Shown here piece by piece: positions 3,304 to 54,975 of a DNA stretch of 64,000 nucleotides. The first letter of the stretch is position 1; the number at the start of each line of letters is the position of its first letter. Below the pieces are notes generated by a model that was given only the letters and a program-made list of their open reading frames with translations, was not told the origin of the DNA and searched no databases. Both the position numbers and the translations under genes were made by a program. Where the stretch lies: positions 1 to 64,000 of the forward strand of contig NZ_JQKB01000015.1 of NCBI RefSeq assembly GCF_000745835.1. Direction: 5' to 3'. Source of the DNA: Belnapia moabensis DSM 16746. GTDB lineage: Bacteria > Pseudomonadota > Alphaproteobacteria > Acetobacterales > Acetobacteraceae.

Positions 3304-3379
<76 letters not shown>

Positions 3380-25548: not shown

Positions 25549-25586
25549 GGGCCGGCCCTCCCCCCTTGCGAGGGGAAGGCCGGCCC
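25549..25586 (-). terminator. Strong hairpin after pufC, end of the puf transcript
   Basis: GGGCCGGCCCTCCCC pairs with GGGGAAGGCCGGCCC with one mismatch in 15, around an 8-nt loop. It begins 17 bp past the pufC stop in the direction of transcription. It probably ends or stabilises the puf mRNA and would reduce read-through into the diheme cytochrome gene. Confidence 0.65.
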
Positions 25587-38816: not shown

Positions 38817-39602
38817 ATGGCCAAAGCCTGGACGACCGACGCCTCTGCGACCCGTGCCGGGCCCGCCATCCGCACGATCGGCACCGCCGACCTGCGCGAG
38901 GCGCTGCGGGAAGGGCTCGACGATTTTCTGGCATCGCCGACGCAGCTCGCCTTCCTCTGCGTGCTCTATCCCGTGGTCGGGCTGGTGGCGGCGCGGGCGA
39001 TGGCGGGCGGTGAGCTGCTGCCGTTGCTCTTCCCGCTGATCGCGGGGCTCTCGCTGGTGGGGCCGGTGGCGGCCGTCGGACTTTACGAGATCAGCCGGCG
39101 GCGGGAGGCAGGGCAGCCGGCGAGCTGGCTCAATGCCTTCGACGTGCTGCGCAGCCCGTCCTTCTTCTCGATTGCGGCGATGGGCGTGCTGGTGATGGCG
39201 ATTTTCGTCGCTTGGCTCTTCGCGGCGCGGGCGATCTTCGAGGCGACGGTGGGGCCGGTGCCGGGCTCCATCGGCGAGCTGGCGTGGATCGCCTTCAACA
39301 CGCCGGAGGGGCATCGGCTGATCCTCATCGGCAACCTGGTCGGCTTCGTGTTGGCGGTCGCGGTGCTGATGCTGACGGTGGTGTCGGTGCCGATGCTGCT
39401 CGACCGGAATGTCAGCGTGGGAACGGCGATCCAGACCTCGGTGCGCGCCTGCCTCGCCAATCCGGTGACGATGGCGGTCTGGGGCTTGCTCGTCGTCGCG
39501 CTGCTGCTGCTGGGGAGCCTACCGGCCTTCATCGGGCTGGCGGTGGTGATGCCGCTGCTCGGGCATGCCACCTGGCATCTCTACCGGCGCGTCGTCGCCT
39601 GA
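38817..39602 (+). CDS. DUF2189 integral membrane protein
   Basis: A 261-residue protein with about six hydrophobic helices and the DUF2189 layout: a charged N-terminus with 'TIGTADLREALREGLDDFLA', 'FPLIAGLSLVGPVAAVGLYE' followed by ISRRREAG, and 'NVSVGTAIQTSVRACLANPV' near the end. The family is of unknown function and is often near cytochrome or photosynthesis genes in alphaproteobacteria (recalled, not checked). AGGGAGG is 8 nt before the ATG. It is the last intact gene before the IS-rich region. Confidence 0.85.
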   Translation: MAKAWTTDASATRAGPAIRTIGTADLREALREGLDDFLASPTQLAFLCVLYPVVGLVAARAMAGGELLPLLFPLIAGLSLVGPVAAVGLYEISRRREAGQPASWLNAFDVLRSPSFFSIAAMGVLVMAIFVAWLFAARAIFEATVGPVPGSIGELAWIAFNTPEGHRLILIGNLVGFVLAVAVLMLTVVSVPMLLDRNVSVGTAIQTSVRACLANPVTMAVWGLLVVALLLLGSLPAFIGLAVVMPLLGHATWHLYRRVVA

Positions 39603-39686
39603 GCTGCGCAGCACTACCTGGGCATTGTTGCGGCTGATGTGCGTTGTCTGAACTGGGCTGGGACGGCTTGGTTTGGGGAGGCGTAC

Positions 39687-40115
39687 GATGGGCCGCACGG
39701 TGCCGGATTTGGACAGCTGGCTGGAGCAGTTCCTGGCCGCGCTTGGGCACATCATGGAAGCGGCGGCTATGGGTGCCGCTCTATTGGCGCGGGCTGCTGG
39801 GTCCGAGCGAGCGTAAGAGCCTGCAGCCGATGGCGGCGGCGTGCCTGGGGCTGAGCGGGCATGACCAGTTGCAGCACTTCAACGCCAGCCCGACCTGGGA
39901 CGATGCGCATCCGGGTCGGCGATGGCGCGGTCTGGGCCAACAACCGGCACCTGCCGGGAGAGGAGGTGTGGCTGGTGGGTGGATGATGATGCTTGAACGG
40001 CGAGCGCAAGTACGACCTGTCCAACCTGCCGCCCCGGGCCTCGCTCCGTGTCCTGGCCGCGGCCATCAAGGCGTGCTGGGTCTGCGAGCAGGCGCACCAG
40101 CAACTTGGGGTGACA
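39687..40115 (+). pseudogene. IS701-type transposase remnant
   Basis: Scattered short frames read parts of a DDE transposase: MGRTVPDLDSWLEQFLAAL at the front, 'AVWANNRHLPGEEVWLV'-like text in the middle, and 'RKYDLSNLPPRASLRVLAAA' with IKACWVCEQAHQQL at the end, which are IS701-type blocks. They are in different frames and lack long internal parts, so the gene is dead. It marks the left edge of the accessory region inserted beside the photosynthesis genes. Confidence 0.7.
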
Positions 40116-40140
40116 CGGCGAAAGTGGTCCGGCTCTGGTG

Positions 40141-40341
40141 TTAGGGTTTCGGCAGATCGAGGCGCTTGCGCAGCCTGGCCGCGAAGTCCGCGCTGAAGCT
40201 GAGGCACCAGCGCCGGATGTCCTCGTGGCTGACCACTATGCCCCGCTCAGCCAGGATCAACTCGGCATCGCGCAGGCTCAGGCTGAACGGATGGTAGAGC
40301 CAGACGACATGATGGGTGACCGCAGCCGAGAAGCGGTAGCC
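40141..40341 (-). pseudogene. IS6-type transposase N-terminal fragment
   Basis: About 66 residues match the beginning of IS6/IS26-type transposases: GYRFSAAVTHHVVWLYHPFS, LSLRDAELILAERGIVVSHE, then IRRWCLSFSADFAARLRKR. The catalytic DDE part is absent; the frame ends after 'LDLPKP'. A truncated insertion-sequence remnant. Confidence 0.75.
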
Positions 40342-40916
40342 CGGGGTAGATGGGAGGCCAGCTCGACATCCAGCCAGCTTGTCCGACCTCTTCGTTCCGG
40401 CCAGTGCGCAACGACGTGACAATGCCCGTCAGCCTCAACGGTCTTCAATGGCCAGCGAGGACGGACGAGGCGGGACGCTTGCCTATCGCCGCGTTGGCGC
40501 AAAAGCCTCTCGGATCTGACGCGAGGAAACGTATGTCCAGATGGCAGCATGATCCTGCCAGGCGCTGTGCCACTCGGTCCAACATGACTATCGCTTCAAC
40601 AAATTGGCAGTCTGACGGAGATTGAGACCGAGCTTATCCAGGCCGCCAAGCTGTCCGACAGATGGGGACCACCCCCCACAACCGCCTCGCGTCAGGCGAA
40701 GCAGGTGCCGGTGGTCACCGTGCTCGACAAGCCGATGCAAACCGCCTCTTACAGTGTGCTGGCTGGCACCAAGGAGCAACAGACGGGCGACAACACCGAG
40801 GGCCCGATTCCGTCTCAATTATCTCAGGCGTTGCGATCATCGAGCAACCAACGCGGCATCGTCCAGAGACACATCAAAGGCATATACGCACCACGTCACT
40901 ACTAAGGAACCGAACG
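40342..40916. other. Scrambled region of IS debris without a recognisable gene
   Basis: Base composition drops below that of the neighbouring photosynthesis genes. Short frames exist, including a 66-codon plus-strand one at 40705-40905 (MPVVTVLDKPMQTASYSVLA...), but none shows a family motif or a good ribosome-binding site. I read it as fused fragments of mobile DNA leading into the carbonic anhydrase promoter. Confidence 0.5.
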
Positions 40917-41672
40917 ATGTTTGGGCGCCTCTGCCTCTGCTGTGGTGAAGCATCTCATCCTGCCAAATCTCAAAGTCGGCGCGGCATCCTGGCAGGCGGG
41001 ATAGCCGCTACGCTTGCTGCAATCAGCTTGAATTGCTCAAGCTCGCAAGCAGCCCAGCCTACCACGCAAACCTCACTGACACCCGATCAGGCCTTGGGTC
41101 TGCTGAAGGCCGGCAATGCCGAGTACCAGCACGGCACGCACACCATTCCCGCACACGGCCGCCAACGTCGAGCCGAGCTGGCCAAAGGTCAAGCGCCGTT
41201 TGCCGTGCTGGTTGGTTGCTCCGACAGCCGTGTTCCGCCCGAGCTACTGTTCGGTCGCGGTCTCGGAGAGCTATTTATCGTGCGCAATGCCGGAAACACG
41301 GTTGACACTACAGCACTGGGCAGCATCGAGTATGGCGTCGGCGTGTTGGGCTGCCCGTTGGTGGTCGTGCTGGGTCATGAGGGGTGCGGCGCCGTCGCTG
41401 CCGCAATGCAAGTTGTCGAGCGCAACGGCACCTTTCCTGGTGTGATAGGTGAGATGGTTCAGCCCATTGTGCCTGCCGTGTTGGCAGCCCGCCATGAGGA
41501 TGGGAAGATATCTTTGGATGATGCGGTGGTCGCCAATGCCCGCAGGGTTGCACGCCGTTTGCACACGCAGAGCCCGGTGCTGCAAGCAGCAATCAATCAG
41601 CAAAGGCTGAAAATAGTCGCGGCGCGCTACGATCTCGACGATGGCGACGTAACGTGGTTCGAGGACGTGTAA
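40917..41672 (+). CDS. Exported beta-carbonic anhydrase
   Basis: A 251-residue zinc enzyme interconverting CO2 and bicarbonate. Zinc ligands are Cys101 and Asp103 (GCSDSRVPPE) and His154/Cys157 (LGHEGCGAV); the rest of the beta-class core ('LFIVRNAGNTVDTTALGSIEY') is intact. Residues 1-47 form an export signal with a twin-arginine start (SQSRRGILAGGIAATLAAIS), so it acts in the periplasm. AAGGAACC precedes the ATG. The gene sits between insertion-sequence remnants and has lower GC than its surroundings, which suggests acquisition by transfer. Confidence 0.92.
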   Translation: MFGRLCLCCGEASHPAKSQSRRGILAGGIAATLAAISLNCSSSQAAQPTTQTSLTPDQALGLLKAGNAEYQHGTHTIPAHGRQRRAELAKGQAPFAVLVGCSDSRVPPELLFGRGLGELFIVRNAGNTVDTTALGSIEYGVGVLGCPLVVVLGHEGCGAVAAAMQVVERNGTFPGVIGEMVQPIVPAVLAARHEDGKISLDDAVVANARRVARRLHTQSPVLQAAINQQRLKIVAARYDLDDGDVTWFEDV

Positions 41673-41879
41673 TCGAAAGCGGTGGTGTGGTCTTGGCGAG
41701 CAAATTGATCGAGCTGAGGCACAATGAGATGTGTGCGCGGATGCGCCAGAAGGGGCGCATAGCTCGGTGCTGCGAGCTTTGAGCACCCTGAGCGCCACGA
41801 TGCGCACGGAAATCGCCTCGACCGGAACCTTGGGCGTGATGCGGGCAGACTCGTCCCGCATCAAGGCGCTGCGGCATGT

Positions 41880-42790
41880 AGAAGGGTGACAGTGCGCCGC
41901 AGATTGTAGGCCATGCCGGCGAGGCGGACCTGCAGTCCCGCCTTGGCAAGGCCGAGCCAGCGCATTCGGCGCAGGCCATAGCTGTGTTCCCAGGCCCCGA
42001 ACACCTTCTCGATCCGGCATTGGATAGGTTGGACCCTGGCATTATGGGTCTCCAGTTGCCGCAACGATACTGCTCCGCCCCAGGTACCGGTTCCGGCCAC
42101 GGCAGGCTGTCCACCTTTGCGCGGATTGCAGAGGCAGAACGCGAGCCGCCGAAAGCACTGTCGCTGTAAACCTTTCCCAAGTCGCCCGGCAGCACCGCCG
42201 CAAACTCGGCCGCGCCGCGAATGTTCGCCGTGGTGACCTCCAAGCTGCGTACCAAGCCAGCGCCTTCATCGGTTGCCACATGCGCCTTGTAGCCATGCAT
42301 GGGCTTACGCGCCGATGCCCGGCCTAGCGTGCTTCGCCATCACTACGGATGCTGGCCGACGAAGTCAGTGTAGCGTCCACCAGGGTGCCTGGTGCGCACC
42401 ATGACGCCCTTGGCCTCAAGCTGGCGAGTGACGGTCTCGAACAGCATGCGGTCCAGGCCACGATGGACCAGCTTCCAACGGAACCGAACATAGGCCGTCC
42501 GCTCAGGCGTTGGCTCATGGGCAGCGAAACCGCAGAACCGACGGAAGCTGGCGCGATCGTCCAGTGACTCGGCCAGCCGTACATCGGAGAGGTCGTGCCA
42601 AGCCGGCAGCAGCATGGCGCGGAACAGAGCCAGCGGCAGCCAGCCAGGCTCGCTCTTCACCGCGGCCAAGATGCCAATCAGATGGCGGCCAATCCCAGCT
42701 TACTCTACCAACGACGATGACGCCCGCGGCTCCAGACTCATGATGAAATCGTCCCGGCCGATCCGCCGACGCACCATCGTCACCTCTCAC
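41880..42790 (-). pseudogene. IS5-type transposase pseudogene
   Basis: Fragments in at least three frames assemble into one transposase: 'GWLPLALFRAMLLPAWHDLS' with DVRLAESLDDRASFRRFCGF (42340-42670), MHGYKAHVATDEGAGLVRSL with 'KVYSDSAFGGSRS' (to ~42300), and the C-terminal 'KVFGAWEHSYGLRRMRWLGL' plus AKAGLQVRLAGMAYNLRRT (to ~41880). Several frameshifts and an early stop inactivate it. It is a different subgroup from the element at the left edge of the window. Confidence 0.75.
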
Positions 42791-42953
42791 CGATGACGCC
42801 ATGGAATCAGACTATGAGCGCCTAACGGAACTATCATTGGGCGAAGTGCCAAGCAACTCGCGGAGAGTTCGGCGGCGTGGCAGAAGAGAAGTCGGTCATG
42901 GTCGTTTCCTTGGACGTTGAAGCGGCGCCGGATGTTTTGCTGTGACCGGAGGC

Positions 42954-44533
42954 TCAGCCCTTGCGGAGGTTGGTAAAGACCGCCGCTCCGTTGAGAATAC
43001 CAGTGACGTTGCGGCGATAGGCGCTCGGCTGTCGGAACAGTCCCAGCGGAACATAGGGCACTACCTCCTCCGCGGTAGTTTGCAACTCCCGCGCGATGCG
43101 TCGCTGCTCCGCCTCGTCAGAGGCCGCCAGCCACTCCGCCCGCAGCGCCTCCAGCCGCGCGCTCTCGGGCCAGCCAGTCGAGGCCCGCAGGCCGTTCGCG
43201 CGAAGGAAGTTGTGCGTGGGCGGGATCCACTGATCCATTCCCGCCCAGTAGGCGCAGTAGCAACTCCACCCCCCCTCGGAGATTGGATTGCGGCTGTTAA
43301 TGCGCGACAGGACCGTGCCCCAATCCGTCGTGACGTAGTCCACGTTGAAACCCAATCCTACGAGCGTCGCCCTCACCACCTCGCAAGCTGTGCTGATGCG
43401 CGGCACGTCTGCGCCGACGAGGAAGACGACCTTCTCGCCCTTGTAGCTGGTCGCCGCCAACTCCCGTCTCAGCCCGTCGAGGGACGCTGCCTCCGCCCGT
43501 CCGAAGTCAGGCACCGTCGCCATTGGCGAGCCTGGCGGGAAGAATCCCACATTAGCCTGCCAATAGTCTGGGTCCATGCCGCCGACTGCCGCCATGATGT
43601 CGGTCTGGTTTATTGCCCGCAGCACGATGCGGCGGATTGCTGGATCTTTGAAAGGTGGGTGCAGGTGATTGAAGCGGAAGCAGCCAATCATGCCGGTCCG
43701 CTCCTTCACCTCCACCACGACGTTACGCGACCGCCGCAGCGCCGGCAGCAAGTCGATCAGCGGTTGCTCCACCCAGTCCGCATCACCCGTCTGCAAAGCC
43801 GCCACGGCGGTCGCCGGATCCGTGACGTTGAAGACCACGCGCTCCACATGGGCCACGCGAGGGCCGGCGGTGAAGCTCGGCGTGCCGTCTGCGCGCGGTA
43901 CGTAACCCTCATGCCGGGCATAGGCCACTCGGGCACCTGCTATGCGCTCGTCTTGCAGAAAGCGGAAAGGACCGGAGCCGACCACCTCGGTCACCTGCCG
44001 GAAGGGGTCGGTCTCGGCCAGTCGCTGCGGCATGATCGCTGGTACCAGGCTGCTCGAGCGGCCTAGCGCCACGGGCAGCAGCGGGAAGGGACGCTTCAGC
44101 CGAAAAACCAGCGTGCGGTCCTCCGGCGCAGCGATCTCGTTCGTCGCGTCCATTAAAGCCTGCCCGAAGGCGTCGCGCACGCCCCAGCGCCGGAGGGAGG
44201 CTGCGCAGTCCCGCGCCAACACCTTCGCGCCGTCGTGGAAGACCAGTCCGTCCCGCAGCGTTAGCCTCCAGGTCAGGCCGCCATCCTCCACCACGTGGCC
44301 CGCCACCATCTGTGGGTGGGGCTGCAACTGCTCGTCCAGTCCGTAGAGAGTGTCGAAGACCGCTAATGCGTGGGTCCGGGTAGTGTAGGCGGTCGAGAAA
44401 GTCGGATCGACCACTGCCACATCCGCTAGGGCACGAAATTCAGCAGGCGGGAGACCTGGGATCGCGCAACGCGTGGCGCGGCCAACGCCGCGATCAGACC
44501 CGCTGTCCCCTTGAGTAAATTCCGCTTGCGCAT
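42954..44533 (-). pseudogene. Peptide-type ABC transporter substrate-binding protein, frameshifted
   Basis: The signal peptide (MRKRNLLKGTAGLIAALAAP, ATG at 44533 after GGAGGTGATCACC) runs into RLLNFVP and then a stop. The mature protein continues in another frame as ADVAVVDPTFSTAYTTRTHA and stays open for 488 residues, with the family-5 extracellular solute-binding motifs ('LTWRLTLRDGLVFHDGAKVL', 'VVGSGPFRFLQDERIAGARV'). A single missing base near 44433 separates the halves, where relatives read FVP-Q-ADLAVLDP. No permease or ATPase genes accompany it. It is a pseudogene or a base-calling error; its surroundings of IS debris favour decay. Confidence 0.75.
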
Positions 44534-44587
44534 GGTGATCACCTCCGTCCTCACGGTTTCACCGTCCAATCCCATTGGAAGCAAGAA

Positions 44588-44920
44588 GTGTGCCCTACTC
44601 ACGGCGCGGACAATATGGCTGGTGGCTTCCTCGACATGATGCTTCCCAACACACTATCGCCCGCGCGTGCGGCGGAATTGCTGGGCGGCTTCGTGCCCGG
44701 CGGCGGCGTTATCGCGCCGATGACATGGGAGCTCGGCAGCATCGCCAACAGCACGGGCGGGTGGCAAAGGTACTCGGCCAGCAAGGCAGCATTGAACATG
44801 CTGATGGAGGCGTTCGCCACGACACGCCCGGGCGGCCCACGCGCGCTGCTCCTGGTGGCCCCGGGTTGGGTACGGATCGAGGCTCCGGGGCCTGATTTCT
44901 CGGTCATTATGCACCTTGCC
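44588..44920 (+). pseudogene. Short-chain dehydrogenase C-terminal fragment
   Basis: The frame contains 'GGVIAPMTWELGSIANSTGG' then WQRYSASKAALNMLMEAFAT, with the SDR catalytic YxxxK and upstream Ser, and ALLLVAPGWVR. The N-terminal Rossmann part with the GxxxGxG motif is missing, and the tail after ~44920 is not SDR-like. A truncated remnant. Confidence 0.7.
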
Positions 44921-45089
44921 TACGGCGGCTTGGCTGCCGCCGAAGCGGGCTCGCCGTCTTGCAATGTCGCGCGCCCGCGGTGCCACAGCCGTTACCCCGC
45001 GGGCAGGAATCCATAGACCTCCGCCGGGTTGTCGACGAGTGCATGATGCCGGCGTCGGCATGGCGGGGTTCCTCAGCGATCGGGAGCGA

Positions 45090-46070
45090 TCAGTTCCAGG
45101 GCGTCGCCTCCCAGATCCGGCGGTAGCGGGCCTCCTGCGCCGGCATCTGCGCCTCCCACTCCGCGCCAGGCAGGTAGGCGAGCGGCAGTTCCAGCTGCTT
45201 CGCCCGCTCCAGCCACTCGGGCTTGGCCATCACCCGCGCGATGGCGTCCTGCAGGCGGGCTGCGATCTCATCGGGGATGCCGCGCGGGGCGGCGAGGCCG
45301 CGCTCGCTGGTCATCACCACATCGAAGCCCGCCTCGCGGAAGGTCGGGACGTTCGGCATCAGTTCCCAACGATGCTCACCCATGGCGGCGAGCGGCCGCA
45401 GCAGCGGCGGTCTGTCCTGGCTGAGGATGCCGATTTCACCGAGGTTCAGCCCTGCCACGTCGATATGGCCGGCCAGCACGGCATTCTTCACCAAGCCGGC
45501 GCCGGCGAATGGCACGTGGATGAACTCGGTACCCGAAGCCGCTTGCAGCAGGGTCAACCCAAGATGGTCGTCGGTGCCGACGCCCGAGGAGCCGACGCTG
45601 ATTGTCGCCGGCTTTCGGCGCGCCGCTTCGACAAGGTCCTTGAGGGTGCGATAGGGCGAATCCTGACGGACCACGAAGGCGGTGGGGTCATCGACCAGCC
45701 GAGCGATGGGGCGGATCTTCGCGCGGTCGTAGCGCACCTTCCGCTCCAGTGGCACGGAGAGGTAGCCGGGCGTGTTGATGGCGCCGATCGTATGGCCGTC
45801 CGGCTTGGCCGACTGGAGGGCGACATAGGCGGTCTCGCCGCCAGCGCCCGGCCGGTTCAGCACCACGAAGTTCGCGCCGGGGATCTCGGCCCCGAGGAAG
45901 AGGCCCAGCGCCCGCACCATGACATCGGTGCCGCCGCCCGGGGCGAAGCCGACGATCACCTCGATGGGCCGTCCGGCAGGCCAGCCGCCCTGCGCCAGGG
46001 TGGGGCATGGCAGGGCCAGGGCTGTGGCTGCGAGCAGGCCGCGGCGTCCCATCATCGTCTTGTCCTGCAT
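45090..46070 (-). CDS. Bug-family solute-binding protein
   Basis: A 326-residue periplasmic receptor with signal MQDKTMMGRRGLLAATALAL (RR motif) and Bug motifs 'PIEVIVGFAPGGGTDVMVRA', 'FVVLNRPGAGGETAYVALQS' and KPDGHTIGAINTPGY. It is intact, with GGAGGAGAG before the ATG. It lies at the end of a minus-strand run rraA - hydroxyacid dehydrogenase - oxidase pseudogene, which suggests uptake of the organic acid handled there. It has no membrane subunits nearby. Confidence 0.9.
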   Translation of the reverse strand: MQDKTMMGRRGLLAATALALPCPTLAQGGWPAGRPIEVIVGFAPGGGTDVMVRALGLFLGAEIPGANFVVLNRPGAGGETAYVALQSAKPDGHTIGAINTPGYLSVPLERKVRYDRAKIRPIARLVDDPTAFVVRQDSPYRTLKDLVEAARRKPATISVGSSGVGTDDHLGLTLLQAASGTEFIHVPFAGAGLVKNAVLAGHIDVAGLNLGEIGILSQDRPPLLRPLAAMGEHRWELMPNVPTFREAGFDVVMTSERGLAAPRGIPDEIAARLQDAIARVMAKPEWLERAKQLELPLAYLPGAEWEAQMPAQEARYRRIWEATPWN

Positions 46071-46116
46071 CCTTGGCTCTCCTCCGTTGATTGGTTGCGA
46101 CCCGGCCCTGCGGGGT

Positions 46117-48557
46117 TCAGGCCGGGGCCGGGTCTGCCCGTCGCAGCGCCTGGAGCAACGCCTGCGCCGGGTGCGGCAGCGCCACACCGTCCAGGCGCTT
46201 TGCCTGGGACCGGCAGGAATATCCGGTGGCCAGCAACCCGCCTGCGGACACCGGCACGGCAACGTGACGGCGCCAGCTCTGGTCGTAGATCCGCTCCGAG
46301 GTGCCGCGGTGCTCCGCCTCATGGCCATAGGTGCCCGCCATGCCGCAGCAGCCAGCCGCCAGGACCTCCAGCTCGAGGCCGTGGCGGGCGAAGACCGACT
46401 GCCAGTCACGCAGCGACGCGGTGGCGGTGATGCGCTCCGTGCAGTGCGCCAGCAGGCGGTACCGCGCCGGCCCGGCACGCGGCCCATCCATCGCTTGCCG
46501 TGACAGCCACTGCTGCAGCAGCAGCACATTGGGCAGGTCCCGCCCATCCAGCGCCTCGGCATATTCGGCGCGGTAGGTCAGCGTCATCGACGGATCGATG
46601 CCGACGAGCGCGACGCCCGTCCCGGCCAAGGCGCGCAGCCCCGCCGCGTTGCTGGCCGCCACCCGTCCGAAGGCGCCGAGGAAGCCATGCACGTGCAGCG
46701 CCTTGCCGTTCGGCCGGTAGGGCGCCAGCCAGGGCGTGACGCCCAGCAGCCGCAGCAGGTCCAGCACGTCGAGGACAAGCTGCGTCTCGTAATGGGTGGT
46801 GGAGGCGTCCTGCACGAGGATGACGGCGCGACGCCGCTCGGCCTCGCTCAACGCCCTCAGCGCCTCGGGTGTGGCCAGGGCCAGTCCGCGCATGGCGAGT
46901 TCGGCCCGGAGGTCGATGCCGGACAGGCGGGGAGTATCCACGAGGCCGAGCCAGCGGAGGCCCGTGCGGCCGACAGGGCCCGACACGACCGCATCCGCCA
47001 GCCGGGAGGCTCTCGCCATGACCGGCAGCAGGTGCTCCAGTGCCCCGGCGACATGGTCGCGCGGCGGCCGCAGGTAGCGGCCGTAGTAGAGTTCGAGGAA
47101 CTTCGCCCGGAAGCCCGGGACGTTCACCTTGATCGGACAGCCGCCCACGCAGGACTTGCAGGCAAGGCAGCCGTCCATCGCCTCCTTCACCGCATGCGAG
47201 AAGTCCTCCTCGCCGCGGCGCCGCGCCAGGGTGTTGCGCATGCGGGCAGGAAATCCTCGCCACATCGCGGTGCGGCGCAGGCGACGCGTTTCCGCCACCG
47301 GATCAACACCGGCGGCGGAGAGGCGGCGCAGCCACTCCTTCACCAGCATGGCCCGGCCCTTCGGGGAATGCCGCCGGTCGTGCGTCGCAGCCCGACCGAG
47401 CGCTTGCGCATCTCCCCAGATGCGGCCCACCGGCCCCTCGCCGCGGGCCACGGTGTAGCCGGTGCGGCCACCGCCCTGCCCAGCTGCCGCCAGCGCCGCG
47501 GTCATGCGGAGAAGCGGTTTCTCGACCTCCTCCTCGGTGCCGCCGACGAACTCGATGAGGTTGATGCCGCGCGCCGGGCCCGATGCGTCATCAGGGAAGA
47601 ATTCGCGCACGCCGTCCCAGACGATGTCCCGCTGCGCCAGGGCCAGCACCTTGGAATCCACGGTCTCGATGGAGGCCGGACCGAACGCCGTCAGCGCGCG
47701 GGCATCGCGCAGCGCCGCATCGAAGCTGGCATAGCGCAGGTTGATGAGGGCGCTGTGCTTCGGGATGGGCAGGAGATTGAGCTTCGCCTCGGCCAGGATG
47801 CCGAGCGTGCCCTCCGAGCCGCAGAGGATGGCATTGAGGTCGAAGCGCCTGTCCGGTGTACGGATATGCGCCAGGTCGTAGCCGGTCAGGCAGCGGTTCA
47901 GCCGGGGGAAGCGGGCTGCGATCTCTTCATGGTGCTCACGATGGATCATGTCCACCGCGCGGTAGACGGCGCCGACACGGTCGGTCCGCCGCTTCGCCTC
48001 GCGCAGCGCGTCGTCGCGCAGTGGGTGCGAGTGCCAGACGGTGCCGTCGACCAGCACCGTGGTCAGCTCCAGCACATGGTCCCGCGTCTTGCCGTAGAGG
48101 CAGGAGCCCTGGCCGCTGGCATCCGTGCTGATCATCCCGCCGGTGGTTGCGCGAGAGCCGCGTTGAGCTGGTCCTTCACCACACCCGCCTCGACCCGGAC
48201 CCAGCGCTCCGCGGGGTTGATCTCGAGGATGCGGTTCATATGGCGGGAGACATCGACCACCAGCCCATCCGTCAGGGACTGGCCGTTGGTGCCGGCGCCG
48301 CCGCCGCGGGGCGCGATCCTCACTTCGGCGAAGCGCGGCTCCGCCAGCAGGCGCCCGATGCGGGCGAGATCCTCCGTGCCGCGCAGGAAGGCGACGGCCT
48401 GCGGCACCAGGCGGTAGATCGAGTTGTCGGTGGCGAGCACCGTCCGGTCCCCATCCGCGGCCGAGAGGTCACCCTCGAAGCCGGCGGCGCGCAACGCGTC
48501 CAGGAAAGCGGCACAGGCCTTCCCAGGCGCGTCCTCGCTCGGCAGGTGCGGGATCAT
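46117..48557 (-). pseudogene. FAD/FeS oxidoreductase (YdiJ-like D-2-hydroxyacid dehydrogenase), two internal deletions
   Basis: The front part (MIPHLPSEDAPGKACAAFLD to 'RVEAGVVKDQLNAAL') and the rest (ATTGGMISTDASGQGSCLYG onward) are in different frames at ~48135. Relatives carry about 14 extra residues of FAD-binding sequence there. A second junction at ~47395 joins RIWGDAQALG directly to HDRRHSPKGRAMLVKEWLRR, dropping about 190 residues that hold the end of the FAD oxidase domain and the first 4Fe-4S motif. The second cluster motif CLACKSCVGGCPIKVNVPGF and the CCG-type C-terminal domain remain. The total of ~813 codons compares with about 1,000 in YdiJ. Inactive as it stands. Confidence 0.82.
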
Positions 48558-48575
48558 GCTGCCGCCGGCACCGGA

Positions 48576-49574
48576 TCAGGCAGCCGCCAGCCGGAAGCCG
48601 CCCGGCACGACGATGGCGCCCTCCAGCGCCGGCATGCGCCCGGCAAGCACCGCGACGATGCTCTCCGCCGCGCCGGTCGACATGCCGACCGCGCCGCGCG
48701 GCGTGTTGGCCGCGAGGTGCGGCGTCGGCAACACGCGCGGGTGGTTCCGCAGCGGGCTCGCCTCCTCCAGCGGCTCCTTGGCGAACACGTCGATGCCCGC
48801 CCAGGCCAGCTGCCCGCTCTCCAGCGCCGCGAGCAGCGCCGCCTCCTCCACGATGCCGCCGCGCGCGGTATGCACCAGGATGGCGCCTTTCGGCAGCAGC
48901 GCCAGCTGCGCCGCGCCGATCATGCCACGCGTCGAGGCATCCAGCGGGCAGTGCAGCGACAGCACCTCGGCGCGCGCCAGCAACGCGTCCAGGGTCTCGA
49001 CCCGCTCGGCAGGGCCAGGCAGCGGCCCCGGGGGCAGCAGCGGGTCATACGCGCTTACCGTCATGCCGAAGGCGGCGGCCATCCGCGCGACCTTGGAGCC
49101 GATGGCGCCATGGCCGACGATGCCGAGCAAGACGCCGTCCACGTCGCGGGTCATGCGGGAGGTCTTCTCCCACATGCCGGCGCGCATACCCGCCTGGATC
49201 TCGGGCAAGTCCTTCAGCATGGACAGCATCAGCGCCATGGCGTGCTCGGCGACCGAGCGGGAATTGGCCCCGGCGGCGCGCGTCACCGTCAGCCCGCGCG
49301 CCTCGGCCGCGGCGAGGTCGATGCCGTCCATCCCGGCGCCATGACGTGCGATGACACGCAGGCCGGGAGCCGCGGCATCGATCACCGCGGCGTTGATGAT
49401 GCCCTGGCGGTGCAGGATGGCGACCGGCTTGTGCTCGGCGATGGCGGCGAGCAGGTCCGCCTCGGAGGGGTAGGCGGTGGCGCAGGGCACGGCAAAGCCG
49501 GCCCCCTGGAGGATGGCGACGGCCTCGGGCGCGAGGAAGGCGGCGGTGACGAGGACGGCGGGCTTCGCGGTCAT
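48576..49574 (-). CDS. D-2-hydroxyacid dehydrogenase (NAD-dependent)
   Basis: A 332-residue member of the D-isomer 2-hydroxyacid dehydrogenase family. The catalytic Arg/Glu/His set is in ILVHTARGGIVEEAALLAAL, 'GIDVFAKEPLEEASPLRNHP' and VLPTPHLAANTPRGAVGM; the NAD-binding motif is LLGIVGHGAIGSKVARMAAA. Similar to phosphoglycerate/hydroxypyruvate reductases but shorter than SerA, without an ACT domain. Its start lies 11 bp after the rraA stop, so they are in one operon. The exact substrate is unknown. Confidence 0.9.
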   Translation of the reverse strand: MTAKPAVLVTAAFLAPEAVAILQGAGFAVPCATAYPSEADLLAAIAEHKPVAILHRQGIINAAVIDAAAPGLRVIARHGAGMDGIDLAAAEARGLTVTRAAGANSRSVAEHAMALMLSMLKDLPEIQAGMRAGMWEKTSRMTRDVDGVLLGIVGHGAIGSKVARMAAAFGMTVSAYDPLLPPGPLPGPAERVETLDALLARAEVLSLHCPLDASTRGMIGAAQLALLPKGAILVHTARGGIVEEAALLAALESGQLAWAGIDVFAKEPLEEASPLRNHPRVLPTPHLAANTPRGAVGMSTGAAESIVAVLAGRMPALEGAIVVPGGFRLAAA

Positions 49575-49585
49575 GGACGGCTCCT

Positions 49586-50263
49586 TCACGCCAGGCCTTC
49601 GCAGTTCAGGCGGCGCAGCGTGGCGTCCGCCCATGAGGCGTCATGGGTGCCTGCCTCGATATTCGCCATCTGCTTCGCCTCGGCCTCGGCCTTCTGCATG
49701 GCGGCGGCGAGCACGGCCTCGGTCGCGGCGAAGGGCACACAGAGCAGGCCGTCATCGTCGCCGAGGATCAGATCGCCCGGCTCGATCACCATGCCATCGA
49801 TGGCGATGGGGACGTTGATCTCGCCCGGGCCGTCCTTGTAGGGGCCGCGATGGGTGACGCCGGCGGCGAAGACCGGGAAGTCCTGGGCGCGGATGGCGGC
49901 GCTGTCGCGGATGGCGCCGTTCAGCACGATGCCGCCCAAGGACCGCCGGACCATCTGGGCCAGCATCAGCTCGCCGATCAGGGCATTGGTGAGGTCGCCG
50001 CCGGCATCGACCACGATGACGTCGCCCGGCTCGGCCAGGGCGATGGCCTTGTGGATCATCAGGTTATCGCCGGGTCGGGTTCTCACCGTCAGGGCCGGAC
50101 CAGCGAGGCCGCCACCGGCATGCATCGGCCGCAGCCTCGGGCCGCCGGCGGTCATGCGGGCCATCACGTCGCTGACATTGGCGACGGGGAGGGCGCGGAA
50201 GCGGGCGACCGCATCGGTGCCGACCTTGCGGCCGCGCGGCAGGATCCTGAAACCAACGGGCAT
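49586..50263 (-). CDS. RraA-family protein (4-carboxy-4-hydroxy-2-oxoadipate aldolase-like)
   Basis: A 225-residue protein of the RraA/HMG-CHA aldolase fold. The motifs GDNLMIHKAIALAEPGDVIV, VDAGGDLTNALIGELM, 'GIVLNGAIRDSAAIRAQDFP' (with the Arg-Asp metal/pyruvate pair) and 'VIEPGDLILGDDDGLLCVPF' are all present. In catabolic operons these are usually aldolases or oxaloacetate decarboxylases rather than RNase E regulators, so an enzymatic role is more likely here. It is the first gene of a minus-strand operon with a recognisable promoter. Confidence 0.88.
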   Translation of the reverse strand: MPVGFRILPRGRKVGTDAVARFRALPVANVSDVMARMTAGGPRLRPMHAGGGLAGPALTVRTRPGDNLMIHKAIALAEPGDVIVVDAGGDLTNALIGELMLAQMVRRSLGGIVLNGAIRDSAAIRAQDFPVFAAGVTHRGPYKDGPGEINVPIAIDGMVIEPGDLILGDDDGLLCVPFAATEAVLAAAMQKAEAEAKQMANIEAGTHDASWADATLRRLNCEGLA

Positions 50264-50293
50264 GGACGGCCTCTCCCCGGAGTTGCTGGCAAC

Positions 50294-50322
50294 CTGATAG
50301 GCGCCAACATTAAAAAACGCAA
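50294..50322 (-). promoter_or_regulatory. Predicted rraA-operon promoter
   Basis: On the minus strand, TTGCGT (50317-50322) and TATCAG (50294-50299) are separated by exactly 17 bp and preceded by an AT-rich tract (50323-50341), unusual in this GC-rich region. It lies about 31 bp before the rraA start codon. Confidence 0.5.
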
Positions 50323-50339
50323 CGCTATTCTATTTATTT

Positions 50340-51325
50340 TTAGTCCTTCCAGGGCCGACGGTCCCAAAGGGCACGCAGTGCCGCCTCGCCCCCGAGCGCC
50401 GCTTCCCGGTAGGCCGTGCCGACCAGCGGATGCAGGATCAGCCCGGCCCGGGCGGCGGCCTCGGCCCAGACGGGGTCGGCGAAAATGCCGGCCAGGGCGC
50501 CCTCGAGCGCAGCGCGGATCGGCTCTGGCAGGTTGGGCGGCCCGAACAGGCCGCGGCCGGCGGAGAAGACCAGGTCGGTGCCGCTCTCGCGGTAGGTCGG
50601 GATGTTGGGCGCCGCCGCGTCCCGCTCCGGCGCGGCGAGGGCCAAGCCCCGGATGGCGCGGTCCCGCAGCAGAGGCAGCGCCTCGCTGAGGTTGAAGGCG
50701 CCGATATCAAGCTGGCCGCCCAGCAGGGGGACGAGGAGCTGCGAGGTGCCGTTGAAGGGGATGTGGTTCAGGCGGATGCCTGCCTTTTCCTCCAGCAGCA
50801 ACGCGGCGATGTGGTCGTCGCCGCCGATGCCGGCGGTGCCGTAGGAGACATGGCCCGGCTCCTTGCGCGCGGCCGCCAGCAGGCCCGGGAGGTCGTGCAA
50901 CGGGCTGTCCATGCGAACGAAGGGGCCGCAGGGATCCTCGATGACTTGGGCCAGCCAGGTGAGCTCCGCCGGGCGGCAGCGGACCGGTCGCTCGATCGGC
51001 TGGCTCATGACGGTGGGGTGGCGCAGGCGCCGAGGGTGAAGCCATCCGGCGCCGCATTGGCCACCGCCTCCGTGCCAACCTGGCCGCCGGCGCCGGGCCG
51101 GTTGGAGACGATGATGCGCGCCCCCGGAAGATGGGCCGCGAGGAACGGCGCGACGGCGCGCGCCATGGCGTCCATCCCGCCCCCGGGCGCGAAGGGCACG
51201 ACGATCTCGATCGGTCGGCCGGCGGGCCATGCCGGCTGGGCCAGGGCCGGGCGCGGCAAAGCCGGGCGGGCCAAGGCGGCGGCGATGGCGAGGGCGGCGC
51301 GGCGGCCGGGATGGGCATGGGACAT
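50340..51325 (-). pseudogene. Bug-family solute-binding protein, frameshifted
   Basis: The N-terminal part (MSHAHPGRRAALAIAAALAR, 'PIEIVVPFAPGGGMDAMARA', then DGFTLGACATPPS and stop) and the C-terminal part (PTVMSQPIERPVRCRPAELT to DRRPWKD) are in different frames that meet at ~51010. There a run of four C in ACCCCACC would need one more C to read ACATPTVMSQP. A GGAGGAG ribosome-binding site precedes the ATG at 51325. A one-base deletion in a homopolymer: true decay or a base-calling error. It is divergent from another Bug gene. Confidence 0.78.
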
Positions 51326-51448
51326 GGCGCTTGGACTCCTCCAGGCGCGGCTTCGCTTGACAGGCCGCGCAGCGGACGGCCTATAACGAAACACCATTCC
51401 GAAATCTACCACCCATGGCTGCATCGCACAACAGGGAAGGAAACCGCC

Positions 51449-52450
51449 TTGCTCCAGCGTCGCCGGCTCTTCAGCGCCACCCTTGCGTCAGTCGCCATCG
51501 GCCTCGGGGCCGGCCGGCAAGCCTTCGCGCAGGATGAGGCCTGGCCCTCCCGGCCCGTGCGGATCGTCGTCGCCTGGGCGCCCGGCGGTGCGGTCGACAC
51601 CATCGCCCGGCGCATCGGGCAGAAGCTTGCGGAGAGGCTCGGCAAACCAGTGGTGGTCGAGAACAAGTCCGGCGCCACGGGCACCATCGGGGCCGCCGAG
51701 GTCGCGCGCTCCGCACCGGACGGCTACACCCTGCTGGCGATGGACAACACCTACGCCATGCTACCCTACCTGTTCCAGAAACTGCCCTTCGACCATGCCA
51801 TCGCCTTCCGCCCGATCACGGTGAGCGCCTTCTCGCCCGTCATGCTGGCGGTGCACCGCGATGCGCCCTGGCGCGACCTGGCCTCCCTGATCGCGGCGGC
51901 GAAGCGCAAGCCGGAGGAAATCACCTACGGCACGGGCGGCATCGGCAGCGCCCCGCATTTCGCCACCGCCGCTTTCTCGCAAAGCGCGGGGGTGAAGCTC
52001 TTCCACGTGCCGTTCAAGGGCGCCGGCGAGGCGGTCACGGCGGTGCTCGGGCAGCAGGTGGACATGGTGATGATCTCGCTCGGCTCCGCCCTCGGCCATG
52101 TGCGCGGTGGGCTGCTGCGGCCCCTGGCAATGAGCGGGACGAGCCGCACCGCCGCCCTCCCCGATGTGCCGACCTTCCAGGAGGCGGGCCTGGCCAATTT
52201 CGGCCCGCATGGCGAGGGCATGGTGAACTGGTCTGGCCTCGCCGCGCCCGCCCGCACGCCGGATGCAATAGTGACGCGGCTGCAGGTCGAGGTGGCGACC
52301 GCACTGCAGGCATTGGACATGCGGGAATTCCTGGCCACCATCGCCTCCGAGCCCGGCGGCATGCCGCCCGAGGCCTTCGCCACCCTCCTGCGTGAGGAGA
52401 CCGCGCGCTGGCGGGATGTCGCGGGCCGCGCCGGCATCGAGAGGCAGTAG
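51449..52450 (+). CDS. Bug-family solute-binding protein
   Basis: A 333-residue receptor starting at a TTG (GGGAAGGAAACCGCC upstream), with signal peptide LLQRRRLFSATLASVAIGLG to ...QAFAQ and the motifs 'PVRIVVAWAPGGAVDTIARR', VVVENKSGATGTIGAAEVAR and SAPDGYTLLAMDNTYAM. The TTG is the first usable start before the signal peptide. It is followed after 5 bp by an SMP-30 lactonase gene and then an IclR regulator, forming a small catabolic operon. No TctAB partner is adjacent. Confidence 0.9.
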   Translation: MLQRRRLFSATLASVAIGLGAGRQAFAQDEAWPSRPVRIVVAWAPGGAVDTIARRIGQKLAERLGKPVVVENKSGATGTIGAAEVARSAPDGYTLLAMDNTYAMLPYLFQKLPFDHAIAFRPITVSAFSPVMLAVHRDAPWRDLASLIAAAKRKPEEITYGTGGIGSAPHFATAAFSQSAGVKLFHVPFKGAGEAVTAVLGQQVDMVMISLGSALGHVRGGLLRPLAMSGTSRTAALPDVPTFQEAGLANFGPHGEGMVNWSGLAAPARTPDAIVTRLQVEVATALQALDMREFLATIASEPGGMPPEAFATLLREETARWRDVAGRAGIERQ

Positions 52451-52455
52451 CCGTC

Positions 52456-53364
52456 ATGTCCTTCTTCGCCCCGCCCCCGCGCCTCGGCACCGAGGTCTTC
52501 ACCCGCCTGCCCGACCGCTTCCGCCGCCCGCGCCCGACCGATTGGGCGCGCTGGAACCGCGGCGGGCGGGAGATCGACAGCTTCCTGGAAGGCCCCTGCT
52601 TCGATGGCGAGGGGCGGCTCTACGTCACCGACATTCCCTTCGGCCGCATCTTCCGCATCTCGGCCGCCGGGGAGTGGGAGCAGGTGGCCGAGTATGATGG
52701 TTGGCCGAATGGGCTCAAAGTGCTGCTGGACGGCCAGTTGCTCGTCACCGACTACAAGCGCGGCCTGATCCGCATCGACCCGGCCACTGGCAGCCTCACC
52801 CCGGTGCTGGAGACGGCGCGCAGCGAGCGCTTCAAGGGGTTGAACGACCTCTGCCTCGGCGCCGATGGCAGCATCTTCTTCACCGATCAGGGGCAGACCG
52901 GGCTGCACGACCCGACCGGGCGCGTCTATCGCTTGCGGCCGGAAGGCCGGCTCGACCTGCTGATCGGCACCGTCCCGAGCCCGAACGGCATTGTCGTGGC
53001 GCCGGACCTCTCGCACCTCCTCGTCGCCGTGACCCGCGCGAACCAGATTTGGCGGCTGCCGCTGCATGGCGACGGGGCCGTCACCAAGGCCGGTGTCTTC
53101 TGCCACCTGCATGGTGGGCCTGGCGGGCCGGACGGGCTGGCCTGGGACCCGGAGGGCAACCTGCTGGTCGCACATACCGGCATCGGCACCGTCTGGCGGC
53201 TCTCTCCACGGGCCGAGCCGATGCTCGGCATCACCTCCTGCGCCGGTGCCTCAACCACCAATCTCTGCCTCGGCGGCCGTGATGGGCGTGAGCTCTTCAT
53301 CACCGAGAGCGAGACGGGGAGCATCCTACTTGCCCGGCTGGAGACGCCGAGGCCGGCGCGGTAA
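52456..53364 (+). CDS. SMP-30/gluconolactonase-family hydrolase
   Basis: A 302-residue six-bladed beta-propeller lactonase. Typical blocks are 'EGPCFDGEGRLYVTDIPFGR', 'WPNGLKVLLDGQLLVTDYKR', NDLCLGADGSIFFTDQGQTG and 'VPSPNGIVVAPDLSHLLVAV', which carry the metal-binding Glu, Asn and Asp residues. No signal peptide is present. It would hydrolyse a sugar- or acid-derived lactone imported through the upstream Bug system; the substrate is unknown. Confidence 0.9.
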   Translation: MSFFAPPPRLGTEVFTRLPDRFRRPRPTDWARWNRGGREIDSFLEGPCFDGEGRLYVTDIPFGRIFRISAAGEWEQVAEYDGWPNGLKVLLDGQLLVTDYKRGLIRIDPATGSLTPVLETARSERFKGLNDLCLGADGSIFFTDQGQTGLHDPTGRVYRLRPEGRLDLLIGTVPSPNGIVVAPDLSHLLVAVTRANQIWRLPLHGDGAVTKAGVFCHLHGGPGGPDGLAWDPEGNLLVAHTGIGTVWRLSPRAEPMLGITSCAGASTTNLCLGGRDGRELFITESETGSILLARLETPRPAR

Positions 53365-53392
53365 GTTCGGGCTGAGGAGTTGGAGGCGCGGC

Positions 53393-54127
53393 ATGTCCGA
53401 TGGATCGAAGTCCCGCCCTGCGGTGGAAGGAGTTGCCTCGGCCGATCGCGCGCTGACCGTGCTGTCGGCCTTCCGCAAGGGCGACCGTGCCCTCTCCCTG
53501 GCGGAACTCGCCGCGCGCACCGGCCTGGTGAAGAGCACCATCATGCGCCTCGCCGTCTCGCTCGAGGCACATGGCTATCTCTCGCGGACGGAGGATGGCG
53601 GTTACCGGCTGGATGCCGAGGTGCTCCGGCTCGGCACCATCTACACCCAGTCCTTCCGCGTGGAGGCCCATGTGGTGCCGGTGCTGGAAGAGCTCGTCGC
53701 TCGCACCGGCGAGACGGCGGCCTTCTATGTTCGGCGCGGCGAGCAGCGCCTGTGCCTTTTCCGCGCGGATAGCCCGCACCTGCTCCGGATGCATGTGCGG
53801 GTAGGGGACGCTCTGCCACTCGACAATTCCGCCATTGCGCAGGTGTTGCGGGCCTTCTCGCCGCGGCCTTTACCCGCCTATGTCGCAGCGCTCGACCTGC
53901 CGATCGTCACCATGGGCGCAACCGACCCGCATACCGGGGCGATTGCCATGCCGGTGTTCGGGCCCGGCGAGGACCTGGCGGGCGCATTGGCTCTCTCGGC
54001 GCCGGTCAGCCGGTGGATGCCCGAGGCTATCGCTGCCGCGCGCCCGGTTTTGGCGGAGGCTGCCGCAGTGTTGACGCGGCGGCTTGGGGGCGATGTGCCG
54101 GAGCTGCCGCGTACTGCAGCGGAGTAG
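53393..54127 (+). CDS. IclR-family transcriptional regulator
   Basis: A 244-residue regulator with an N-terminal winged HTH (ADRALTVLSAFRKGDRALSL, AELAARTGLVKSTIMRLAVS, residues ~15-65) and the IclR effector domain ('VLEELVARTGETAAFYVRRG', then 'GAIAMPVFGPGEDLAGALAL' toward the C-terminus). GGAGG is 6-10 nt before its ATG. It is 28 bp downstream of the lactonase gene and likely controls the Bug-lactonase operon. Confidence 0.92.
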   Translation: MSDGSKSRPAVEGVASADRALTVLSAFRKGDRALSLAELAARTGLVKSTIMRLAVSLEAHGYLSRTEDGGYRLDAEVLRLGTIYTQSFRVEAHVVPVLEELVARTGETAAFYVRRGEQRLCLFRADSPHLLRMHVRVGDALPLDNSAIAQVLRAFSPRPLPAYVAALDLPIVTMGATDPHTGAIAMPVFGPGEDLAGALALSAPVSRWMPEAIAAARPVLAEAAAVLTRRLGGDVPELPRTAAE

Positions 54128-54191
54128 CGCATTCGCCGCCCTGTTTCAGATACGCCTATCCATCTTTGATGGTTGCCGGTGCCTCTATCTG

Positions 54192-54359
54192 CAGTCAGAA
54201 GCACTTCGCACCGGCTCGCGGGAGATCGAGTTGAGCCGGTCACTCCATGCGTGGCTGCGACGGCTCTCCATTCCCATCGGCGGGATGTCGATGCGCGACG
54301 TGCGCGACCAGGCCGAGCGCATCAGCCGGTGCCGCATGTCTTTTGAGATCAAACAGGGC
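54192..54359 (+). pseudogene. Plasmid RepA-type replication initiator, C-terminal fragment
   Basis: Within otherwise noncoding DNA, one frame reads REIELSRSLHAWLRRLSIPI then GGMSMRDVRDQAERISRCRM. This resembles the C-terminal region of plasmid RepA initiators, with their RSLHAFL...IPxGG...RDQAERISRCR block. The N-terminal part and the final residues are missing. The assignment is from recalled family features. It suggests that plasmid DNA was once joined at this point. Confidence 0.6.
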
Positions 54360-54390
54360 GTAGCCTTCCCCCGTATGCGGGGGAAAGGCG

Positions 54391-54660
54391 ATGGGCTGGC
54401 TGTTCGAGGATGGGTTGGTGGCGCCGCTGCTGCTCGGCTTCGTGCTGGCGGAGGCGGTGTTGCTGCTTCTGCTGCATCGGCGGACCGGGCGGGGCTTGCC
54501 GCCGGGCGATATCATCGCGCTGCTGGCGCCGGGGGCCTGCCTGATGCTGGCGCTCTGGGCGGCGATGGCGCGGGCCTGGTGGGGGTGGATAGGGCTCGCG
54601 CTGAGCGCCGCGCTGGTGGCGCATCTGGTGGACCTGCGGCGGCGCTGGTCAGGCCGGTAG
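54391..54660 (+). CDS. Small integral membrane protein, 89 aa
   Basis: MGWLFEDGLVAPLLLGFVLA begins a protein with three hydrophobic segments (VLAEAVLLLLLHRR, DIIALLAPGACLMLALWAAM and WIGLALSAALVAHLVDL). It converges with the small gene downstream of crtB, overlapping its stop. The function is unknown. The layout resembles small proteins of unknown function seen at the edges of photosynthesis clusters, but no motif is recognisable. Confidence 0.65.
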   Translation: MGWLFEDGLVAPLLLGFVLAEAVLLLLLHRRTGRGLPPGDIIALLAPGACLMLALWAAMARAWWGWIGLALSAALVAHLVDLRRRWSGR

Positions 54661-54975
54661 GCGGTGGCGGGTCTTCATGCCGAGCCAGTAGGAATAGGCC
54701 GCGAGCAGGACGAGGAAGCCGATGAGGTCGAGCGGGCCGAAGATCCCGGCGCCGCTCGTCAGCCAGAAGGCGAAGGCGACCTGGCCGCCGGCGATGACGA
54801 GGCCGAGATTGACCAGCGGCGGCATGATGCCGCCCATCATCTCCAGGGATGGGTGCAGGGCGGGCGGCGCCTCGCCGCGGGCAGCGGCCTGTTCCGCACT
54901 GCGGCGGCGGCCGATGGCGGACCAGACCAGCCAGGCGGCGCCGGCGAGCATGAGGATGCCGGGCAGGTTGCGCAT
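54649..54975 (-). CDS. Small membrane protein downstream of crtB, 108 aa
   Basis: The N-terminal helix (LPGILMLAGAAWLVWSAIG) is followed by a charged segment and two further helices (PPLVNLGLVIAGGQVAFAFW and IFGPLDLIGFLVLLAAYSYW). Its ATG is 9 bp past the crtB stop with AGGAGG upstream, so it is translated from the crtIB transcript. No family is recognised. Co-transcription makes a role in carotenoid or membrane assembly possible but unproven. Confidence 0.7.
   Translation of the reverse strand: MRNLPGILMLAGAAWLVWSAIGRRRSAEQAAARGEAPPALHPSLEMMGGIMPPLVNLGLVIAGGQVAFAFWLTSGAGIFGPLDLIGFLVLLAAYSYWLGMKTRHRLPA

Follow-up and report, generated by a model that had tools for sequence, protein, structure and literature searches.

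A derived insertion, very probably started by an IS701-family element and partly of plasmid type, between two blocks of the photosynthesis gene cluster of Belnapia moabensis DSM 16746

The window analysed here is a stretch of 64,000 bp from Belnapia moabensis DSM 16746 (G000:C15:1-64000, with G for genome and C for contig; the source draft genome G000 has 6.73 Mb in 282 contigs). It carries photosynthesis genes in two blocks, which are parted by a segment of insertion sequence (IS) remnants and organic-acid genes at 39610-54360. Among its relatives, G121, G036 and G151 are of near equal kinship to the window (93.9-94.0% over about 7.1 kb of bch-crt DNA). The genes of the flanks were compared with NCBIfam and Pfam models, with crtF, bchC, bchD and bchO left out of the family-library run. 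We found that pufC, pufL, bchX, bchY, bchZ and crtD score above the NCBIfam cut-offs and crtI above the cut-off of the crtI family model. The crtC, crtB and bchI models are the top matches of their open reading frames (ORFs), yet the scores are under the curated cut-offs, and crtE was identified by tblastn matches at the expected position in relatives. Photosynthesis genes hence stand on both sides of the segment, as a first-pass annotation had proposed. All flanking genes run against family models are open. The limits of 39603-54390 given by that annotation had to be corrected to 39610-54360, and the features are as follows.

38817-39602, plus strand: DUF2189 membrane protein gene, left flank, open (Pfam PF09955; 98% identical in G121)
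39609-39611, no strand: left joint, a CTAG target remnant one base short of the empty site, with the IS terminal repeat from 39612 (alignment with the G121 empty site; flanks of related IS copies)
39610-40105, plus strand: IS701-family remnant, left terminal repeat intact, about 640 bp gone inside (39903/39905), right end missing (NF033540)
40161-40434, minus strand: IS6-family transposase remnant, limits approximate (NF033587; related copies in the genus)
40917-41672, plus strand: carbonic anhydrase gene, open, 251 aa, probably exported (PF00484; NF011765 below cut-off)
41723-42814, minus strand: IS5-family element remnant, transposase fragmented (NF033581; 88% to a longer copy on G152:C99)
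42954-44530, minus strand: extracellular solute-binding protein family 5 gene, broken, upper limit approximate (PF00496)
44588-45016, plus strand: short-chain dehydrogenase (SDR) gene fragment (NF006035, profile positions 102-202 of 228 only)
45090-46073, minus strand: TctC-type solute receptor gene 1, open, start not fixed (PF03401; 86% to G150:C280)
46117-48557, minus strand: YdiJ-like FAD/Fe-S 2-hydroxyacid oxidoreductase pseudogene with two lesions (NF049975 below cut-off)
48576-49634, minus strand: D-2-hydroxyacid dehydrogenase gene, open (PF02826, PF00389)
49586-50263, minus strand: RraA-family aldolase-like gene, open (PF03737; NF004850)
50340-51424, minus strand: TctC-type gene 2, disrupted by a frame change near 51.02 kb (the G150:C280 copy is open, 326 aa)
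51452-52450, plus strand: TctC-type gene 3, open, start approximate (PF03401)
52456-53364, plus strand: SMP-30/gluconolactonase-like gene, open (PF08450)
53393-54127, plus strand: IclR-family regulator gene, open, start approximate (PF09339, PF01614; all 234 residues of a plasmid homologue matched)
54183-54360, plus strand: internal slice of a plasmid repA, 178 bp, cut on both sides (92% to G000:C43:31250-31427, inside an uninterrupted ORF matching RepA_C, PF04796)
54361-54388, no strand: right joint keeping three target bases (TAG), then an imperfect inverted repeat (hairpin)
54391-54660, plus strand: small conserved ORF of 89 aa, now parted from DUF2189 (94% identical in the G121-equivalent record)
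54985-56022, minus strand: crtB, right flank, open (NF045921 below cut-off)

Relatives lack this segment of 14,751 bp at the orthologous position. crtB was searched across 150 genomes of the family and matched in 48; the genus set comprises eight genomes, of which seven contain crtB and seven DUF2189, with G153 (75%-complete) a miss for both. In G121, position 39609 directly abuts 54361, and in the alignment no base is lost on either side; the flanks are 94-96% identical near the joint. Except for 39610-54360, G121 is collinear with the window plus 20 kb beyond it, between about 6.3 and 84 kb; identity is mostly 90-94%, with one stretch of 368 bp at 77%. The joint of G151 is exactly that of G121, and those of G154 and G152 lie within about 7 and about 25 bases of it. 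Between the match ends of crtB and DUF2189 there are 636 bp in G121, 635 in G151, 653 in G154, 650 in G152 and 86 in G150, and the two genes adjoin in five of the six other genus genomes holding both. The insertion is unique to the source genome among the seven genus genomes with crtB. Outside the genus, the gene-order script took 18 loci, a subset of the matching ones with L049 and L053 left out. In 12 of these, crtC lies 0.13-3.8 kb from crtB; it was not matched in the fetched stretch of the other six (G095, G049, G087, G092, Dankookia and Paracraurococcus).

Both an exact empty site in a close relative and a close order in the outgroups were thus found. Because 12 of the 18 outgroup loci and the genus relatives keep it, the close order of crtC and crtB is ancestral, and the segment is derived, having been inserted into a continuous cluster. 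A comparison of gene order had been proposed at first pass, and its outcome supports the first of the two readings given there, insertion into a once continuous cluster. The same 15 kb with intact genes between the blocks, which would speak against it, was sought in the seven other genus genomes and was not found. No evidence was found for the rival view of an ancestral segment that the relatives have lost, and this view is extremely improbable: five other genus genomes keep crtB beside DUF2189, 12 of the outgroup loci have crtC near crtB, and the CTAG of G121 is unbroken. The second reading, a scar of plasmid joining, stood in part. Plasmid-type DNA (the repA slice and modules with relatives on repA-bearing contigs) is indeed part of the insert; an origin from two replicons is unneeded, both halves of the cluster lying on one 5.4-Mb contig in G121.

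At the left edge, the insert starts with two target bases followed by the IS terminal repeat, and the homology in the five copies examined first ends exactly there. The full element has about 1.42 kb and inverted ends. The NF033540 model matches the window fragment with E 3e-10 and 39.9 bits (cut-off 150) and a longer relative on G121:C2 with E 2.5e-78, which assigns the transposase to the IS701 family. Two terminal repeats and a target duplication were not found at the window copy; it is classed as a remnant only, because the right terminal repeat is absent and the target remnants are imperfect. The empty site of G121 reads CTAG, starting six bases past the stop codon of DUF2189, and the window keeps these bases less one before the IS end. 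Exact terminal repeats occur 22 times in the genus, one being the window's own; CTAG flanks 14 of the 21 others, YTAR 18 of 21, and CTAG stands on both sides in four of five two-ended copies, the exception being on G152:C99. This preference was counted here and is not taken from print. With 30 occurrences of CTAG in 69,249 bp of flank, the chance of meeting it at the joint is about 0.1-0.2% (one in 500 to 800).

The right edge is of a different kind. The RepA-like fragment reported at first pass was recovered as the 178-bp slice at 54183-54360, which passes straight into the photosynthesis flank. The same IS at both ends, as in a composite transposon, was not found, the right edge being the repA slice, and of a replication gene, as an integrated plasmid would have, only this internal slice was seen. 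The segment is not classed as an integrative element or prophage: no integrase was seen among its scanned ORFs, and a single tRNA was found in the window, at 3304-3379. Near the left edge of the window, at 307-1725 and about 1.6 kb from this tRNA-Ala, there is a tyrosine integrase gene (Phage_integrase with Arm-DNA-bind_3), to which a stretch on G000:C74 is 85% identical. As for the hairpin, a dispersed palindromic repeat as target was considered and rejected: with up to two mismatches it fits only two places in G000, the insertion site and 25555-25580. The latter hairpin lies just before the low end of the pufC ORF. A consensus scan did not list the site hairpin as a terminator; it gave three sites in 39400-54800, where 6.1 would be expected, and neither joint has one. 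Bounding of the segment by direct or inverted repeats was likewise rejected, as no such repeat appears in the 20 of 38 direct families and 25 of 35 inverted pairs that were listed.

Two routes into the CTAG may be considered. Surrogate-end transposition units are known for ISEcp1-like elements, and a single transposition could have moved the whole segment as a unit, with the IS701 left end and a surrogate right end within repA. Both joints indeed fall on one and the same CTAG, that of the empty site (C.AG remains on the left, TAG on the right), and the left terminal repeat is perfect; against this, the repA end does not resemble the right terminal repeat of the IS by eye, each target remnant is one CTAG base short, and the several IS types in the segment make a joint arrival unnecessary. 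We regard this route as rather unlikely. The other has two steps: a lone IS701 element enters CTAG, a plasmid with the same element integrates by homologous recombination, and a deletion removes most of the plasmid and the second IS. The repA slice at one edge fits such a course, as do the IS701-family copies on the repA-bearing contigs G121:C2, G121:C3 and G152:C99, and it has a fair claim that nevertheless stays short of even odds, since the deletion must have stopped precisely at the target remnant and the segment has no further IS701 copy.

The segment itself is a mosaic. Remnants of three IS types had been noted at first pass, and the family models identify them as IS701, IS6 and IS5. The exported carbonic anhydrase named there corresponds to an ORF whose N-terminal twin-arginine-like stretch (by eye) makes export probable; its start codon was picked by comparison with the copy on G121:C3. 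At the DNA level, this gene is about 90% identical to copies on G151:C211 and on G121:C3, the latter a contig with a RepA_C hit. Relatives of the IS5 element and the carbonic anhydrase lie on G152:C99 and G121:C3, contigs that also have RepA_C hits. Organic-acid genes with three disruptions had been claimed as well; TctC, 2-hydroxyacid dehydrogenase, RraA, SMP-30 and IclR genes are present, and the count was too low, with at least four broken non-IS genes (YdiJ-like, TctC-2, SBP_bac_5 and the SDR fragment). In SBP_bac_5, the signal-peptide part and the mature part are in different frames near 44.43 kb (by eye). The YdiJ-like pseudogene has a frame change near 48.15 kb and has lost about 200 residues inside; tblastn with an intact plasmid homologue of 1016 residues yields three pieces. 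The small indels of TctC gene 1 against G150:C280 total multiples of three.

The stretch 48576-54142 shares 85% identity with G150:C280; on that contig TctC-1 comes immediately after it, and the oxidoreductase does not occur at this position. Within it and slightly beyond, 53007-54180 is 87% identical to a remnant beside an IS6 transposase gene on G121:C4. Judged by identity, this part has a history of its own, because G121 is 87% identical there versus 94% in the bch-crt genes. The remnant (G121:C4:13013-14968, L107), with the IS6 transposase gene, a truncated SMP-30 gene and IclR remains, is a separate decay of the organic-acid module. A known plasmid carrying the segment was rejected as a candidate: no record of the plasmid collection covers 80% of any of three queries, and the best-ranked ones cover 8%, 41% and 15%.

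Taken together, 39610-54360 is very probably a derived insertion of IS701-initiated, partly plasmid-type DNA in the convergent gap between DUF2189 and the crtB operon, which reads toward the site, into a cluster that is chromosomal at least in G121. An IS701-family element would have entered the CTAG beside the hairpin behind DUF2189. Plasmid-borne cargo would have been attached to this element or been added later by recombination with a plasmid copy of it, and subsequent IS traffic, deletions and frame changes may have led to the present mosaic. Several points weigh against this account. An IS701 end is missing from the right joint, and with both target remnants imperfect no clean target duplication is seen; three of the 21 other IS701 ends are on neither CTAG nor YTAR; and the joints are those of a draft assembly. 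A plasmid origin of every module is called into question, because the carbonic anhydrase also has remoter relatives (72-73%) on large contigs, the G121 chromosome among them, and because the best match to the organic-acid part, G150:C280, lacks a RepA_C hit and may be chromosomal.

A draft assembly in 282 contigs also raises the question of an artefact, a plasmid contig misjoined into the photosynthesis cluster. Misjoins usually occur at near-identical repeats, and none was present at either joint among the matches listed; the repA slice is only 92% identical to C43, the best IS701 match listed in G000 reaches 83%, and the five other terminal-repeat places of G000, several on short loci, are 67-70% alike or do not match the window remnant. 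Two wrong joins at one CTAG would moreover be required. We therefore consider an artefact very improbable.

The composition of the insertion is distinct too. The first-pass annotation had suggested plotting the guanine-cytosine (GC) content across the segment: the insert has a GC of 0.683 and a GC skew of 0.006, below the minimum of 0.111 (mean 0.149) of 218 flank windows of the same size, the first 8 kb included. In 1-kb bins, the mean skew is 0.005 in 14 insert bins versus 0.138 in 69 flank bins, with p = 2e-7 as a guide only, neighbouring bins not being independent. The first 8 kb of the window have a low skew of 0.052, single 1-kb flank bins reach -0.040, and an 80-kb region of G121 has a minimum of 0.072 across 131 windows. 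The part with the IS remnants and carbonic anhydrase has a GC of 0.627. Skew near zero was also found in an insert of G151 (0.002) and an island of G150 (0.014).

Features of known systems recur in part. IS701 members are cited with target duplications of 4 or 5 bp in PMC8024623. The Belnapia element resembles the family in its transposase fragment and, in relatives, in inverted terminal repeats and a short target duplication; it differs in the internal deletion and the missing right end of the window copy. The plasmid pNMS14P1 of Methylobacterium carries FAD/Fe-S oxidoreductase, RraA, SMP-30 and IclR genes together, and plasmid 3 of Variovorax PBL-E5 has TctC genes followed by SMP-30. Gene order and transporters of these plasmid modules differ from the segment, which has at least four broken genes. 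A narrow literature search (photosynthesis clusters, Acetobacteraceae, Belnapia, Roseomonas) gave no title on this insertion among those listed. Debris of IS elements and plasmids in a tolerant gap is a common mechanism, and the event is of an ordinary kind, well defined by the exact empty site and CTAG.

Among aerobic anoxygenic phototrophs, the crt genes are described as the most variable part of the photosynthesis gene clusters of the Roseobacter clade (Zheng et al. 2011, PMC3176799); in the same study, recombination between crtAIB and crtCDEF is reported for Jannaschia, and the plasmid-borne cluster of Roseobacter litoralis has RPA genes between two conserved blocks. Belnapia differs in that only a dead slice of 178 bp is left of the replication gene, that crtDC-DUF2189 and crtIB are the genes on either side of the foreign DNA, and that the cluster is chromosomal in G121. 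PMC10715153 places photosynthesis clusters on plasmids in several Rhodobacterales and not in Acetobacteraceae.

The interval from the crtC end to crtB, about 1.65 kb when empty, is disturbed in three other genomes and undisturbed in G121, G152 and G154, G152 lacking the 1.4-kb gene at 57655-59142. In G151, crtC and DUF2189 are parted by an insert of 8,683 bp that carries glycosyltransferase and C-methyltransferase genes (L099 5980-14664; G151:C205:155980-164662). In G036 (G036:C96:380139-425598) the crtB-bch block is inverted relative to puf, both on one contig, with DUF2189 on C107; the breaks are at the crtC stop and at window position 54659. In G150 (G150:C107:37683-46393, L103) crtDC and crtI are moved and turned, at 71-73% identity versus 74-84% for the other blocks, as if this module might be of another origin; crtB and DUF2189 are still neighbours. 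G151 and G036 both break at the crtC end, and because they group together on the tree of about 7.1 kb of bch-crt DNA, their events may share a history and the four cases may be three events. The interval was chosen post hoc, after the data had been seen, and the recurrence is a plain count. We tentatively propose, at clearly less than even odds, that it is a recurrent breakpoint in Belnapia and the crt core a tolerated entry port for mobile DNA. Such recurrence may be in line with the published crt rearrangements.

Overall, what had been a suspected split can now be read as an event of known direction, with an exact empty site, and our data show where the photosynthesis cluster can accept foreign DNA without a flanking gene being cut. 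The insertion was probably tolerated because no photosynthesis gene among those checked is interrupted, and phototrophy would, as far as the sequence suggests, not be impaired in the source strain. The more interesting lead is the repeated disturbance between crtC and crtB in one genus, a small natural data set on cluster rearrangement. If the breakpoint reading holds true, mobile DNA would reshape the chromosomes of phototrophs at the crt core without costing them phototrophy.

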